DNA from: Lancefieldella parvula DSM 20469
GTDB lineage: Bacteria; Actinomycetota; Coriobacteriia; Coriobacteriales; Atopobiaceae
Length of the DNA: 64,000 nt
NCBI RefSeq assembly: GCF_000024225.1
Contig: NC_013203.1
Coordinates: forward strand, 124,001 to 188,000
Direction of reading: 5' to 3'
Part shown: one piece after another, positions 32,246-50,729 of the stretch
Layout: every line of letters begins with the position of its first letter
Numbering within the stretch: position 1 is the first letter of the stretch
Made by a program: the position numbers and the translations under genes
The notes under the pieces: generated by a model
Database searches by the model: none
Told to the model about the DNA's origin: nothing
The model's input: only the letters and a program-made list of their open reading frames with translations

Positions 32246-32977
32246 TTAGTCCAGAATGTGGGTTTCTCCCTCGTGTTTCATTGCGTCATCGAGGCGTTGG
32301 AACTGTCTTTCAGTAATAACAATCTTGCCGTGCTGAACAGAAACCATGCCTCTTGCTTTAAGCTCGTCAATACCGCGGGCAACAGTCTTTGTACTGGTAC
32401 CAATCTTGTCCGCCAACTCTTGTCTAGTTAGTCGTACGGTAAACGGCCACTCAACAACACCGCGGTGAATTTGATCGCGCGTTAGCTCACTGAGCATGTA
32501 CATCAGGCGTTTGGTGCCGCTCCAGGTAAGTAGACTGCGCTCATAGCCGGACTGACGCGTCAGGTTCTTGATAATCCAGCGCGAGCGGGCGAGAAGAGCT
32601 TCGGGGTCCGAACGAATCCACTGCAGGTAGTCCTCGCGTGGAACCGAAATAAACTCGCAGCCAGAAGTAGCGGTGAGCGATCCCAGGTAAAACGAACTCT
32701 CACTGATAACTTCCATCTCGCCAAAGGCAACGGGAGCGTGATACTCATCAATAACGTAGGTGCTACCTGCGGAGTTATGCGATGTAGTGCGCACAGTACC
32801 GCGACACAGAATGTAGACGTTGTCAACGCGATCTAGCATGTGGACAAGGGTCTGCCCGGAGTTAAGACGAATCTGTCTACAGTGAGAAAGACGATTAGCA
32901 GGGACGCGAGAAGCCCATTTAATAATCTTCTTGCGAACATCGGAATCAAGACTATCAAGGTAGGTTAAAACGTTCAC
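32246..32977 (-). CDS. Crp/Fnr-family transcription regulator
   Basis: The protein (about 243 aa) has a cyclic-nucleotide-binding-type beta barrel (VYILCRGTVRTTSHN, HAPVAFGEMEVISESSFYLGSLTA). A helix-turn-helix follows: RLTRQELADKIGTSTKTVARGIDELKARGMV. The four-Cys pattern of oxygen-sensing FNR is absent, so it is not an Fe-S oxygen sensor. It lies between psuG and yjjI on their strand, and its 3' end is 130 bases upstream of the yjjI start. I prefer GTG 32977, with GAGGG upstream, over ATG 33013. It is a candidate regulator of the glycyl radical or salvage genes. Confidence 0.88.
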   Translation of the reverse strand: MNVLTYLDSLDSDVRKKIIKWASRVPANRLSHCRQIRLNSGQTLVHMLDRVDNVYILCRGTVRTTSHNSAGSTYVIDEYHAPVAFGEMEVISESSFYLGSLTATSGCEFISVPREDYLQWIRSDPEALLARSRWIIKNLTRQSGYERSLLTWSGTKRLMYMLSELTRDQIHRGVVEWPFTVRLTRQELADKIGTSTKTVARGIDELKARGMVSVQHGKIVITERQFQRLDDAMKHEGETHILD

Positions 32978-33071
32978 ACGAACCCTCACTGTTCTTGCTT
33001 CGTAAGTCCTCATTGCAGGACGGTTTTGGCTTATGTTTGAGTAATTGTACCTGCTACCCAAAATAAAAATA

Positions 33072-33171: not shown

Positions 33172-33250
33172 AAAAAGAAATTTTCGTGCTTGCTTGCATG
33201 CGTAAAACGCTTGAACTAAGCGCTTATGTGTACGCCTGATTTACCAGTGT

Positions 33251-34177
33251 TTACTTGCGGCGGCAGACCTCGGAAGCAACCTTTGCGCCAAGAGCAACGT
33301 TGTTAAAGACCAGCTGGATGTTGGATTCAAGAGAGTCGTTGCCGGTAATCTCTGCGACCTTTGCTAGCAAAAATGGTGTGGACTCCTTGCCGTGGATACC
33401 GTTTGCCTTTGCCTCTGCAAGGGCCTTCTCGATAGCCGCGTCAATAGTGTCCTTATCCATTGCATACTGCTCAGGAATTGGATTGGTGACTAAAAGACCG
33501 CTGTTCATACCAATCTGCTGCTGGGTAGTAAAGATCTCTGCCAGCTCAGCAGGTGTGTCAACGCGGTAGTCAACGCTAAAGCCGCTCTTACGGGTGTAAA
33601 ACGCAGGAAGCTCCTCAGTTTGGTAGCCAAGTACTGGAACACCCTTGGTCTCCAGGTATTCAAGGGTAAGACCGAGGTCAAGAATAGACTTTGCACCAGC
33701 GCAAATGACCATAACAGGAGTCTGTGCAAGCTCCTCGAGGTCAGCGGAGATGTCCATGGTGGTCTCAGCGCCACGGTGAACGCCACCGATGCCGCCGGTT
33801 GCAAAGACGTCGATGCCTGCCATGTGAGCAATCATCATGGTAGTAGTGACGGTAGTTGCACCATCTTTCTTCTCAGCAATGATGACTGGGAGGTCGCGAC
33901 GGCTGACCTTAGCAACCTCGCGGCCCTTTTTGCCTAGGTAATCAATCTCGTCAGCGGAAAGACCGGCACGCATCTGGCCGTTAATAATTGCGATGGTTGC
34001 AGGAATTGCACCGTTGTCGCGGATAATCTGCTCAACCTTCAGAGCGGTCTCGACGTTTTGTGGGTAAGGCATACCGTGAGAAATGATGGTGGACTCTAGA
34101 GCTACAACAGGCTTGTTCTGCTCAAGAGCTTCTTTAACCTCGTCAGATACAACAAGAAAATCCTTCAGGTTAGACAT
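33251..34177 (-). CDS. psuG: Pseudouridine-5'-phosphate glycosidase
   Basis: The protein (308 aa) cleaves pseudouridine-5'-phosphate to uracil and ribose-5-phosphate. It shows VVALESTIISHGMPYPQN near residue 25, PATIAIINGQMRAGL, TTTMMIAHMAGIDVFATGGIGGVHRGAE and VLGYQTEELPAFYTRKSG. Family order and length are correct. I chose the ATG at 34177 because TTGGAG lies six bases upstream. It follows the psuK-type gene in one probable operon and feeds ribose-5-phosphate into the same pool as DeoB. Confidence 0.96.
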   Translation of the reverse strand: MSNLKDFLVVSDEVKEALEQNKPVVALESTIISHGMPYPQNVETALKVEQIIRDNGAIPATIAIINGQMRAGLSADEIDYLGKKGREVAKVSRRDLPVIIAEKKDGATTVTTTMMIAHMAGIDVFATGGIGGVHRGAETTMDISADLEELAQTPVMVICAGAKSILDLGLTLEYLETKGVPVLGYQTEELPAFYTRKSGFSVDYRVDTPAELAEIFTTQQQIGMNSGLLVTNPIPEQYAMDKDTIDAAIEKALAEAKANGIHGKESTPFLLAKVAEITGNDSLESNIQLVFNNVALGAKVASEVCRRK

Positions 34178-34251
34178 ATGTACTCCAATCACAAAAGGCT
34201 AATAGAACCGAAAGTAGTGCCGCGCAAACGTTCTGCACGTATATCTTCGCG

Positions 34252-35334
34252 CTAAATACCTGCGCGCTTGATAACCTCTTCAACGTTGAGCTGACTGTTG
34301 ATGGTTTCCTCTCCTTCAATGGCTATGCTGGAGGCAGCCATACCTACCAGTCCAGTTTGCTCAAGCGTCATACCCTGGGTATACGCCCAGGTAATTCCTG
34401 CCATCATGGCATCTCCCGCGCCTGTCATGTTGATTAGCTTTGCTGGGAGCAGTGGTAAGCGGATGGTCTTCTCGTGATCAGCACAAAGAAGCCCCTTCTC
34501 GCCAAGAGAGATAAATACACGCTTAAGACCTGTTGCAAGTAGCTCATGAGCTGCTGCTTCAAGGGAAGCGTCGTCAGTAATCTTGATGCCCGAGAGCATT
34601 TCAGCCTCAAGGCGATTTGGTTTGAGCGTGTAAAGTTTGCCTAGGACTTTCTTAAGTTTTTGCGCTTTAATAGAAGAAACGGGATCGCAGAAAATAGGGC
34701 AGGTCACGTTCTTGGCAATAAACTCAATGGTCTGTTGAGGCAGGTTAGTGTCAATCACGCAAGCTGCGGCATGCTGGATAACATCTAGGCGCTCTTCGAT
34801 ACGTTCAGGGGTAACATACTCGTAGATCTGCATATCATTGATGGCTTCCTGCATCTCACCGTGCTCGTTCATAATGAAGAGATAGGTAGAAGTGGAAGCG
34901 CCTGGAACAGTAATGGATGCATCGATGTCAATACCGCAGTCTAGGCAGCCCTCTTTAAGCTCACGGGCACGATAGTCCTCGCCAAAGGCGGTAAGCAGAC
35001 GTACGTCGCTGTCGAGAAGGGCCAGGTTGTGTGCGATATTTCTGCCAACGCCACCAAAGGATATGGTGACTTTGCCAGGATTTGAATCTCCTGCCACAAG
35101 AGAAGTCTCTGGTCGACCAGCAATATCCATGTTGGCAGCGCCAATCACAATAAAATAGGGACGTTCGCTCAAAATGTAACGACGACCCAAAATAGCGCCC
35201 TTTGCGGTGAGGTTAGAGATGTGAACCGAAACAGAAGAACGTGAAATACCTGCGCGTTCTGCAATCTCCTTCTGAGTAATGGAAGGCTGCTCTTTAATCC
35301 AGTTGAAAATCATCTGTTCTCGATTGGTAAGCAT
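34252..35334 (-). CDS. psuK: Pseudouridine kinase (PfkB family) with N-terminal winged helix
   Basis: The protein (360 aa) joins a helix-turn-helix (NREQMIFNWIKEQPSITQKE, then AERAGISRSSVSVHI, residues 4-40) to a PfkB-type sugar kinase. The kinase shows VIGAANMDIAGRP, SFGGVGRNIAHNLALL and the catalytic MTGAGDAMMAGITWAY. Regulator-kinase fusions of this type are known for pseudouridine and nucleoside kinases. It probably phosphorylates pseudouridine for PsuG and senses substrate to control its own operon. AGGAGG gives the start at 35334. Directly repeated elements in the upstream spacer are candidate operators. Confidence 0.9.
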   Translation of the reverse strand: MLTNREQMIFNWIKEQPSITQKEIAERAGISRSSVSVHISNLTAKGAILGRRYILSERPYFIVIGAANMDIAGRPETSLVAGDSNPGKVTISFGGVGRNIAHNLALLDSDVRLLTAFGEDYRARELKEGCLDCGIDIDASITVPGASTSTYLFIMNEHGEMQEAINDMQIYEYVTPERIEERLDVIQHAAACVIDTNLPQQTIEFIAKNVTCPIFCDPVSSIKAQKLKKVLGKLYTLKPNRLEAEMLSGIKITDDASLEAAAHELLATGLKRVFISLGEKGLLCADHEKTIRLPLLPAKLINMTGAGDAMMAGITWAYTQGMTLEQTGLVGMAASSIAIEGEETINSQLNVEEVIKRAGI

Positions 35335-35751
35335 TGGGCCTCCTAGCAGCAAAAATAGAATTCGACTAAACAGGTGCTTATATAAAAATTTCTAAACAGG
35401 TGCTTATCTTGTTTAAGCTAGTGCTTAAATTTGCTTGGGATAACCATAAGACAGCAGCTAGAGCCTGTAAAGAATAAATTCATTAAATTTTTCCAAGGTG
35501 AGTTTAAAGTTTTTCTCGGCATACTTATTTTACCTGCTTGATTTTTCTAAGCATTTGCTGTGTACCGTTTACAGAATTTTAGTATCTGCAAACGGTTGTA
35601 TCGAGAAAATCTCCCTAAATTGGGCATCGGCGTAATGCAACTGTAATAATATATTTAATGAATACTAATAAATAGTAATGAGTCGTCCACATAAGTTGGT
35701 TTACGCGTGTATCGTGCGCAAATGCTTGTTCTGGACGTTTTAGGAGGTAGT
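35335..35751. promoter_or_regulatory. 417-base divergent control region between psuK and deoB
   Basis: No gene is seen; the stretch is AT-rich. It holds two exact copies of CTAAACAGGTGCTTAT (35366-35381 and 35392-35407) spaced 26 bases start to start. Next comes the palindrome TTTAAGC-TAGT-GCTTAAA (35412-35429), whose right arm repeats the GTGCTTA core. A possible deoB promoter is TTGGGC (35620-35625) with TAATAA (35644-35649) at 18 bases. These are strong candidates for the operators of the regulator-kinase PsuK or another local regulator. Confidence 0.7.
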
Positions 35752-36942
35752 ATGCCTAAACGTGTTTTTGTGGTTGTTCTTGATAGTTTTGGCATTGGTG
35801 AAGAACCAGATGCAGCAGCATATGGAGATGAGGGCAGCAATACCCTCTGCGCATGCGCAACTAGCGGAGTTCTTAATATTCCAAATATGACAAAGCTGGG
35901 TCTTCTTAATATTGATGGCGCGCTTGATACTGTCTATGACGTTGATTTGAAGCCAATTGAGTCTCCTATGGGCGCATATGCTCGTATGCAGGAGAAATCT
36001 GCTGGTAAAGATACCACCGTTGGTCACTGGGAGATGGCAGGCGTCATTTCTCCAAAGAAGTTCCCAACCTATCCTGATGGCTTCCCGCAGGAGGTCATTG
36101 AGGAGTTTGAGCAGAAGACCGGTCGCAAGGTTCTGTGCAATAAACCTTACTCTGGAACTGATGTAATTAGAGATTTTGGTAAAGAGCACGTAGAGACTGG
36201 TGCTTTGATTGTTTACACTTCAGCAGATTCTGTTTTCCAGATTGCTGCACATGAGGATGTGGTAAGCCCCGAGAAACTCTATGAGTATTGCCGCATTGCA
36301 CGTGAGATTCTGCAGGGTGAGCATGGTGTTGCTCGCGTTATTGCTCGTCCTTTTGAGGGAGAGTGGCCATATCAGCGCACTTCTCGCCGTCATGACTTCT
36401 CGCTTGAGCCAACTGGCACAACTATGCTTGACCGTCTCAAGGAGAACGGCTTTGACGTTCTTTCCATTGGCAAAATTTATGACATCTTTGCTCATCGTGG
36501 TATGACTGAGTTTGAGTTTACTACCTGCAATGCAGATGGAATTCAGAAGACTATTGAGGCTACCAGTAAAGACTTTAACGGTCTATGCTTCACTAACCTT
36601 GTTGATACTGACATGATTTACGGTCACCGCAACGATCCTGTGGGATATTCCAATGCTCTTTCTTACTTTGATGAGCATATCCCTCAGATTATTAAGGGTC
36701 TTCGTGAAGATGATCTGTTTATCATTACCGCAGATCATGGCTGTGATCCTGTGACGCCATCTACTGACCACTCTCGTGAGTATGTACCACTGCTTATCAC
36801 AGGTCCAAAAGTCAAGCCAAATACTAACCTTGGTACAACCACCACATTTGCCGACATGGCCGAGACAATTCTTGATTATTTTGGCGTTGAGCAACTTGGT
36901 GTTGGAACTTCTCATCTATCAGAGATTCTTAAGGAGAATTAA
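35752..36942 (+). CDS. deoB: Phosphopentomutase
   Basis: The protein (396 aa) interconverts (deoxy)ribose-1- and 5-phosphates with two metal ions. It shows [25 protein letters not shown], the phosphate-acceptor Thr segment [26 protein letters not shown] and [25 protein letters not shown] precedes the ATG at 35752; the frame extends further upstream without support. Its stop overlaps the deoD start, so the two are translationally coupled. It links phosphorylase products to DeoC. Confidence 0.96.
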
Positions 36943-37652: not shown

Positions 37653-37819
37653 AGTGCGCTCTGTTGCGCAAAGCGTCGTAGATGGGCTGCTTTTTATTGC
37701 TGTTTTGTTTTGGAACCATGCGGATTTTCCGCTTAAGCTAGGGGAGTTTGGTCAACTTCTCATAAAGATCCAGCGCTAAAGCTGGACGTTCCCGCCACAT
37801 GAGGTAAGGAGAGCATGGA

Positions 37820-48900: not shown

Positions 48901-50729
48901 GCCTTGATGCACTTACCACCGATCAGGTTCAAGAGATTCTTGAGGCTTCGGGCAAGATTTACACCATGCTTAAGGTTGATCAGGTTTCCAACTTAGGTGC
49001 TGCACGAATTCGTATCCGCTCTCTAATGGCAGCCCTGAATGAGCAGCAAGCAGAGCTAGAGCGACTTGCAGCTGCCGGCTTGGTTACCGAGGCCGTTCCA
49101 CAGGGCGTTCGCATGGCCGATGGTTCTTTGGAAAAGGCTAGGAGTGCAAGTTCTTCTCGCCGTGCGCCAGTGTATCGTGAGGCAGAATCTGCAGCTTACG
49201 AGAAGGTCCGCTACACCAAGGAGATGCAGGAAGCGGGTTACACCATTCTGGCTCCACAGATGGCACCGATTCACTTTGAGCTGGTAGAGGAGTTGCTGAA
49301 GGGTGCGGGCTATAACGTTGTGCTGTTGCCTTCAGTTGACCAGGGTGCCGTTGACATGGGTCTTCGTTACGTTAACAACGATATTTGCTACCCATCTATT
49401 CTGGTTACAGGTCAGATTATGGAGGCGGTGCTTTCGGGCAAGTATGATCTGACTAAGACTGCAGTCCTGATTTCGCAGACTGGTGGTGGCTGCCGTGCAA
49501 CCAACTACATTGCGCTGATTCGTAAGGCGCTTAAAGATGCAGGCCATCCAGAGATTCCAGTTATTTCTATCTCCGCTGCTTCTGGTCTTGACGAGGACAA
49601 CCCGGGATTCAAGCTCTTCAAGCCTGATTTGCTGATCAAGGCAGTCTATGCGTTGCTTTACGGCGATCTAATCATGCAGCTACTGTATCGCGTACGTCCA
49701 TACGAAGCTGTCAAGGGCTCTGCAAACGAGTTATATGACCAGCTCATGGCCGATATGCGTTCCAAGATCAATAGAATTTCTCGCAAGGAATTCTACAAGC
49801 AGTGCCAGCGTACCATTGAGTTGTTTGACAGTCTGCCAGTGGTGAACGATCGACAGAAGCCACGTGTTGGCGTTGTCGGTGAGATTCTGGTTAAGTTCCA
49901 CCCAACAGCCAACAATGAGCTGATCAAGGTCATTGAGTCCGAGGGTTGCGAAGCAAACGTTCCTGGTCTGGTGGACTTCTTCCTGTTTGGTCTCTCTAAT
50001 GCAATCAATACGCATAAGGAGCTAGGCACCACGTTCAAGAGCCGCATGACGCATATCGCAGGAATTAAGATGGTTCAGGGTCTGCGCGCGCCAATCAATA
50101 AGATGCTGGAGAAGTCAGAGCGCTTTGAGCCGTACCCCAACATTGATGAATTGGCCGAGAAGGCTGGTCAGATTCTTTCGCTCTGTAACACGATGGGCGA
50201 GGGTTGGCTGCTTACCGCAGAGATGTGCGACCTTATTGAAACGGGTACACCAAACATTGTCTGTGCTCAGCCGTTTGCCTGTCTGCCAAACCACGTTGTT
50301 GGTAAGGCGGTTATTAAGCGCTTGCGTCAGATGCATCCTGAGTCCAACATTGTTGCCGTTGACTACGATCCGGGTGCGTCTGAGGTTAACCAGCTTAATC
50401 GTATTAAGTTGATGATTTCGGTTGCTAAGGAGAATTACAAAAACGGTGTGAATGGCGAGTTTAAGCTAGAAAACGCTGATGACCCTGTTACTAATGACGC
50501 AACTATGCCGTATACCGGCCGAGATAAGTATGGCCTAGATTCCGTTGTTCGCGAAGGCGGACATTCTTGCTCGTCGCATCATGTATCTGCATTGGAAGCA
50601 ACTGGCGCTAATTTGGGTGATCATGGTCGCACGGCATCTGACCACGGAAAAGATTACGGTTCTATTAGGCTTTCTGAGGAGCAGATAGCTGCAATTGAGC
50701 GTGCCAAGAAGAAGGCAGGCGTCAAATAG
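45975..50729 (+). CDS. One-piece 2-hydroxyacyl-CoA dehydratase-activase protein (BadF/BcrA-type plus DUF2229)
   Basis: This 1584-aa protein contains two ASKHA ATPase (activase) domains. The first starts LGIDVGSTTVKLSV (about residue 30), with GTCAGGTGAFIDQM near 150. The second starts FIGIDAGSTTMKAAVV (about 344), with NEACSAGCGSFI near 468; its Cys would hold the bridging 4Fe-4S cluster. After residue 629 follow a Cys-rich segment CRICPNSCML and a DUF2229 region with SESACYPAKLSHGHI. The C-terminal HgdB-like region has YVNNDICYPSILVTGQIMEA. ATP-driven electron transfer is the known role of such activases. The substrate of this full-length form is unknown to me. Confidence 0.9.
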   Translation: MISPKFELVENGAELVPNVPLDLSQAHLMLGIDVGSTTVKLSVIDEDGTLVYANYERHHTDVRATARSLFVKAQKYIGDTPMYAAITGSGGMLLAQWLDLEFVQEVIASKRAVETLIPQTDVAIELGGEDAKIIYFDNGIEQRMNGTCAGGTGAFIDQMASLLKTDATGLNELAKDVKQIYPIASRCGVFAKSDVQPLLNEGAAPADIAASIFQAVANQTVSGLACGHPIRGYVAFLGGPLQYLSELRRRFYITLNLDDEHIVLPKNAHLFVATGAALAGESDRPITFTQVMEALDNLKDLQGSEVARLDPLFATQQDYDDFKTRHDQEVVPKGQLANYHGRVFIGIDAGSTTMKAAVVGEKGELLYTWYDNNNGDILGTARKIMDSIYDEMPSDCIIGHVTTTGYGEGILIEALRADSGEIETVAHLRGAKAFVPDVDFILDIGGQDMKCLQVKDGVIEHIMLNEACSAGCGSFIASFADSMKMDVREFATAATKAKLPVDLGSRCTVFMNSRVKQAQKEGATIGDVAAGLSYSVIKNALFKVIKLRDFSEIGEHCIVQGGTFMSDATLRAFELLTGRDVIRPDIAGVMGAYGAALLARDRAGIDGVSTLLDRESIDNLQVKLTNTHCRICPNSCMLTINDFGGGHRFITGNRCEKGAGKKRGAKKNQAPNLFAYKNKLLFDRESLPVDEASRGTVGIPRALNMYENYPFWHTFFTKLGFSVILSDQTTAKTYDAGIESMPSESACYPAKLSHGHIMNLLAKDPDFIWMPCIRWERKEDDSATNHYNCPIVMSYPQALGLNVDELSDPSIQYLAPFIPYDKKNELKRRLYELISEQREKDAQAGKGRFRGEHITRAEIDAAVEAAWQEDSNFKDQMHRAGDEALAWIEEHDAHGIVLAGRPYHNDPEINHAIPELVSSFGFAVLTEDSIAHKMLPERPIRIVDQWMYHSRLYRAARFVASRNDLDLIQLFSFGCGLDALTTDQVQEILEASGKIYTMLKVDQVSNLGAARIRIRSLMAALNEQQAELERLAAAGLVTEAVPQGVRMADGSLEKARSASSSRRAPVYREAESAAYEKVRYTKEMQEAGYTILAPQMAPIHFELVEELLKGAGYNVVLLPSVDQGAVDMGLRYVNNDICYPSILVTGQIMEAVLSGKYDLTKTAVLISQTGGGCRATNYIALIRKALKDAGHPEIPVISISAASGLDEDNPGFKLFKPDLLIKAVYALLYGDLIMQLLYRVRPYEAVKGSANELYDQLMADMRSKINRISRKEFYKQCQRTIELFDSLPVVNDRQKPRVGVVGEILVKFHPTANNELIKVIESEGCEANVPGLVDFFLFGLSNAINTHKELGTTFKSRMTHIAGIKMVQGLRAPINKMLEKSERFEPYPNIDELAEKAGQILSLCNTMGEGWLLTAEMCDLIETGTPNIVCAQPFACLPNHVVGKAVIKRLRQMHPESNIVAVDYDPGASEVNQLNRIKLMISVAKENYKNGVNGEFKLENADDPVTNDATMPYTGRDKYGLDSVVREGGHSCSSHHVSALEATGANLGDHGRTASDHGKDYGSIRLSEEQIAAIERAKKKAGVK

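Follow-up and report, generated by a model that had tools for sequence, protein, structure and literature searches.

Does a pseudouridine kinase that carries a DNA-binding domain control its own operon, and are the repeats upstream of its gene the sites at which it acts? This question is raised by a locus in the 64,000-nt window analyzed here, i.e., positions 124001-188000 of the Lancefieldella parvula genome (1,543,805 bp, single contig). The psuK gene (34252..35334, minus strand) encodes a 360-aa protein in which a winged helix-turn-helix (HTH) domain (residues 1 to about 50) is fused to a PfkB-type pseudouridine kinase. Its start was assigned to the ATG at 35334, which lies behind GGAGG and fits the relatives; the list of open reading frames had a TTG at 35352. 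The partner gene psuG, encoding pseudouridine-5'-phosphate glycosidase (33251..34192, minus strand; Pfam Indigoidine_A, E 1.5e-138), is present directly 3' of psuK. Across the spacer, the divergent phosphopentomutase gene deoB (35753..36942, plus strand; NCBIfam phosphopentomutase above cut-off) starts with the ATG at 35753, behind AGGAGG, and is the first gene of a deoB-deoD-BMP-ABC-cdd-pdp series. The divergent psuK/deoB gene order is conserved. Among the named relatives, Atopobium sp. BS2 (kinase 95% identical), Lancefieldella rimae and the Atopobium strain sp. oral taxon 199 are the closest. A gene of the Crp/Fnr family (32246-33061) adjoins psuG, and its relatives also occur near psuK in three other stretches (L117, L118, L122).

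A sequence-only reading of this DNA had ascribed a winged helix to the kinase itself, and the Pfam search agrees, placing HTH_24 (E 4e-9) at the N-terminus together with PfkB (E 1.2e-48); no ROK domain was matched by Pfam in PsuK. In the AlphaFold2 model (mean pLDDT 91.7), three helices make up the N-terminal domain, which a linker of low confidence joins to the PsuK fold; the best match of the model among solved structures in Foldseek is E. coli pseudouridine kinase (E 1.4e-38). The best NCBIfam match is the YeiI family (PRK09954), with 251 bits, which is under the curated cut-off of 561 bits. We scored 19 residues, namely the E. coli PsuK positions tied to substrate, metal or catalysis in PMC9247573 plus the remaining positions of the GAGD loop; on this list, to which all residue counts below refer, Lancefieldella PsuK keeps 19 of 19. 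The kinase residues are intact and the HTH sits on the PsuK fold, and therefore enzyme and regulator probably coexist in one chain.

The spacer contains the exact 16-mer CTAAACAGGTGCTTAT at 35366 and 35392 and the palindrome TTTAAGC-TAGT-GCTTAAA at 35412-35429, as the same reading had reported. Both 16-mers and the palindrome are copies of one 14-bp site, TAARC-N4-GYTTA. Three copies are exact: O1 (TAAGCTAGTGCTTA, 35414..35427), O2 (TAAACAGGTGCTTA, 35393..35406, 21 bp from O1) and O3 (TAAACAGGTGCTTA, 35367..35380, 26 bp from O2). A further copy that had been overlooked, O4 (TAAGCATTTGCTGT, 35548..35561), is degraded in the window, matching at 8 of 10 positions. The genome holds 13 exact sites (7 in the reversed control). 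Three of them fall within 61 bp, whereas the density of the remaining ten predicts 0.0004 for such an interval. The spacer reaches a tandem score of 20, and nowhere else in the window is the score 17 or higher. Conservation in close relatives, proposed as a check on the repeats, was found for O4 as a single site in all five genus genomes and not for the triple O1-O3 array, which is confined to the window and BS2. O4 lies within the best-conserved block of the spacer and is perfect (TAAGCAATTGCTTA) in L. rimae and imperfect in the other genus genomes; L. rimae and two other members of the genus have a single site and no tandem. Beside O4 lies an inverted element, ACCGTTTACAGA-N9-TCTGCAAACGGT (35564..35596), of which the TCTGYAAACGGTA half is conserved in the genus. 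Within the genus, the block AATTCTGYAAACGGTA beside O4 is as well conserved as the operator (relatives L050-L054, L057, L061-L064), and AGCGG variants accompany sites in other genera; it may represent a site for a second regulator, part of a promoter, or a half-site displaced by one turn.

For psuK, consensus scoring only predicts a promoter with a -35 box TTTACA (35466..35471, minus strand) and, after 17 bp, a -10 box TATGGT (35443..35448, minus strand), with 15 bp between its end and O1. Of 28 spacers examined, 14 have, among their three best predicted promoters, one whose -10 box ends somewhere from 1 bp within the first site to 16 bp ahead of it; this count is uncontrolled. The location of sites at or just after the predicted -10 box in half of the spacers suggests autorepression, and the locus has what is expected of an autoregulated HTH repressor, a conserved operator at its own promoter. 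Promoter prediction gave no convincing deoB promoter near O4; the conserved O4 and the gene order make deoB a possible second target.

The kinase is present in 35 of the 140 genomes of the family, and the match includes the N-terminal HTH in 17 of these; among 396 genomes of the class, none of the kinase matches outside the family starts before the HTH has ended. Loci were scored with the window consensus for tandem sites at 18-22 bp spacing against dinucleotide shuffles (p<=0.05). The tandem site beats shuffles in 13/16 HTH family loci versus 1/15 HTH-less loci, figures that carry several qualifications: the layout and spacing were chosen after the loci were inspected, kinship within the sets is uncorrected, the 16 loci include three near-duplicate pairs and two loci that shaped the consensus, and the HTH-less loci are richer in G+C, for which shuffles correct only in part. 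The motif search across related genomes that had also been proposed found the tandem site above shuffles in all nine non-redundant HTH family loci outside the genus. Among 13 HTH loci of other phyla, six are significant (Acetoanaerobium, Listeria, a spirochaete, Paroceanicella, Neorhizobium and Terrarubrum; combined p 1e-7), and the tandem test was not significant in the other seven (Aeromonas, Deinococcus, Rhizobium, two beta-proteobacteria, Neobittarella and Ilyobacter). Ilyobacter has a strong single palindrome. The Neobittarella HTH-kinase gene sits directly behind another kinase gene; in this tandem pair of PfkB kinase genes (L010:5064-7071), the second has the HTH and GVGQ replacing GAGD. 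In a consensus-free check, each of the 1024 possible five-base half-sites was given a score in the tandem 5-4-5 layout. TAAAC took first place both in the other phyla and in the family loci from outside the genus, and ranked 71st among the HTH-less loci. For 10 of 12 relative loci, the spacer score is unmatched by any other 250-bp window. The idea that the spacer repeats form a matching set holds in the form of one conserved operator, whose link to the kinase HTH across phyla is well supported by these comparisons.

The set had also been extended to a single regulon including TTAAGCTAG at 37733, upstream of the nucleoside importer, and TAAGCGCTTA at 33217, past psuG. Both sequences are present; however, the former is not beyond chance, occurring also at 50461 and reading TTAAGTTAG in BS2, and the latter is not conserved, being absent behind psuG in BS2. 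Since both sites are missing in this closest relative, the wider regulon fails. A wider regulon in the genus was likewise rejected: in the five genus genomes searched, the 12 exact sites of relatives that were taken up as loci (L100-L111) all lie inside long open frames, and none is at another nucleoside promoter. Five of the ten further exact sites in the L. parvula genome were read; one is inside deoD and the others show no nucleoside link.

The partner gene psuG was not found in 5/17 HTH family genomes (G116, its sister G117, G051, G043 and G031). The kinases scored in these genomes keep 14/19 (G117), 16/19 (G051), 3/19 (G043) and 5/19 (G031) residues, and the psuG-bearing family kinases scored keep 17-19 of 19. 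HTH_24 still matches well in the three psuG-less kinases scanned (G043, G031 and G051), operator-like sites persist in the psuG-less genomes, and the decayed kinase gene of G031 still faces deoB. That the HTH and the sites outlast the kinase pocket would be difficult to account for if DNA binding were not the retained function, and the drift of the pocket suggests a change of ligand in these genomes. The HTH-PfkB genes at L126:3244-4353 and L125:8754-9857 encode proteins with a nearly lost pocket (5/19 and 3/19, respectively), in genomes that keep the HTH and the sites and have no psuG match.

E. coli PsuK shares the PfkB fold of Lancefieldella PsuK and the complete set of 19 substrate and catalytic residues, but it has no HTH and is an enzyme only. 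The E. coli psuK promoter has TGAGCACATGTTTA and TGAACACATGTTTA at a distance of 18 bp, immediately after TACTAT, and the score of this tandem was reached by 0/100 shuffles of the 20-kb region and 3/2000 shuffles of the spacer. A 78%-identical plasmid copy preserves the two sites with their 18-bp spacing; in another copy, 72% identical, the pair is weaker. An HTH-PfkB protein, YeiI ('putative sugar kinase'; PRK09954, NF007416), is encoded 5 kb from E. coli psuK, in a genome that thereby has the tandem operator at the psuK promoter and an HTH-PfkB gene nearby. YeiI has the same HTH_24-PfkB domain order as Lancefieldella PsuK; unlike the latter, it has three altered residues (M114, N187 at the metal site, and G255 in the GAGD loop; 16/19 kept), it coexists with an HTH-less PsuK, and its gene lies behind nfo with no operator site upstream, where the sequence is the coding end of nfo. 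In the literature consulted, YeiI is classed as a hypothetical transcription factor (PMC6055005) and described as an uncharacterised sugar kinase, with the pseudouridine kinase step assigned to PsuK (PMC12506659); on this assignment, YeiI was rejected as the kinase for that step. Because the tandem site stands at the E. coli psuK promoter although PsuK lacks an HTH, YeiI is predicted to be the psuKGT repressor, a sensor whose kinase activity is weak or absent. A psuK-psuG-psuT-yeiL cluster with the tandem site is located on a conjugative IncHI1 E. coli plasmid (L112:5022-9002), and the part of the surrounding stretch that was read has no yeiI.

With good confidence, we propose that Lancefieldella PsuK is both enzyme and transcription factor, which would repress psuK-psuG through tandem operators, be released by pseudouridine, and probably affect deoB. 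The PfkB dimer would bring the winged helices together to bind tandem 14-bp TAARC-N4-GYTTA sites spaced by roughly two turns of the helix, close to where the psuK transcript starts, and bound PsuK would block transcription of psuK-psuG. An influence on the divergent deoB nucleoside operon, exerted through O4 at 35548, is also probable. PsuK would leave the DNA once pseudouridine or its phosphate occupies the kinase pocket, and therefore the operon would open when the substrate is present. The computations show that the two domains are fused, that the pocket is intact, that the operator exists and is conserved together with the HTH across phyla, and that in half of the spacers it lies at the predicted -10 box or past it. 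From this pattern we infer that PsuK itself binds the sites, that it represses and does not activate, which inducer it senses, and that it controls deoB; autorepression of psuK-psuG appears likely and pseudouridine is a plausible inducer.

The neighbouring Crp/Fnr-type gene offers another candidate binder. Crp/Fnr-type proteins bind 5-4-5 palindromes, the same layout as the operator, and the gene beside psuG, with its relatives around psuK in other stretches, recalls YeiL, which adjoins psuT in E. coli and accompanies psuKGT on the IncHI1 plasmid. However, the sites follow the HTH on the kinase, and tblastn, which a diverged gene could escape, detected no relative of the protein encoded beside psuG or of YeiL in L119, L120, L123 and L124 or in the 13 other-phyla stretches, where sites occur; we regard a Crp/Fnr-type owner of the sites as improbable. 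Slightly less improbable, though still unlikely, is that PsuK binds the sites but activates, or senses a ligand other than pseudouridine. Sequence cannot reveal the sign of regulation or the ligand, and the drifted pocket in the five psuG-less genomes means that the ligand may differ there; against this, the start of sites at or after the -10 box in 14/28 spacers is a position typical of repressors, and every psuG-bearing family genome scored keeps 17-19 of the 19 pocket residues. Finally, the repeats would fall in the leader of the predicted transcript and might act in RNA, as leader hairpins or a riboswitch, or be chance repeats without function. This we consider very improbable, as no Rfam family exceeds the threshold (the only hit, DsrA with E 0.81, is below cut-off) and the short arms, the tandem spacing near two turns and the HTH association point to DNA.

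The proposed autorepressor has a parallel in the ROK-family repressors (NagC, Mlc), which carry an HTH on a sugar-kinase fold and take the substrate or its phosphate as their signal. PsuK likewise has an HTH on a sugar-kinase fold, but it belongs to a different kinase family (PfkB) and keeps its kinase residues intact, so that enzyme and regulator coexist. In the literature searched, which covered few subscription papers, we found no described HTH-PsuK or YeiI regulon and no described regulator of pseudouridine breakdown; the present finding supplies this pathway with a candidate regulator, its operator and a likely signal. More broadly, we lean towards the view that HTH-PfkB proteins are a widespread group of repressors that sense their substrate, control pseudouridine catabolism and use a single operator code (tandem TAAAC-N4-GTTTA type); YeiI would be the split form of this group. 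If so, the code would be shared by Actinomycetota, Bacillota, Fusobacteriota, Spirochaetes and Proteobacteria, and YeiI, altered at the metal ligand and the GAGD loop, would have become a pure pseudouridine sensor, with PsuK keeping the kinase job. A metabolic enzyme would then be seen at several stages on the way to a dedicated regulator, namely as an active fusion, as a fusion whose pocket is lost, and in split form. The E. coli orphan YeiI gains a target that is testable in a common laboratory strain. The 121-bp E. coli psuK promoter is present in 4176 of 5426 E. coli genomes, about a quarter being without it, and the psu locus may often be lost in this species.
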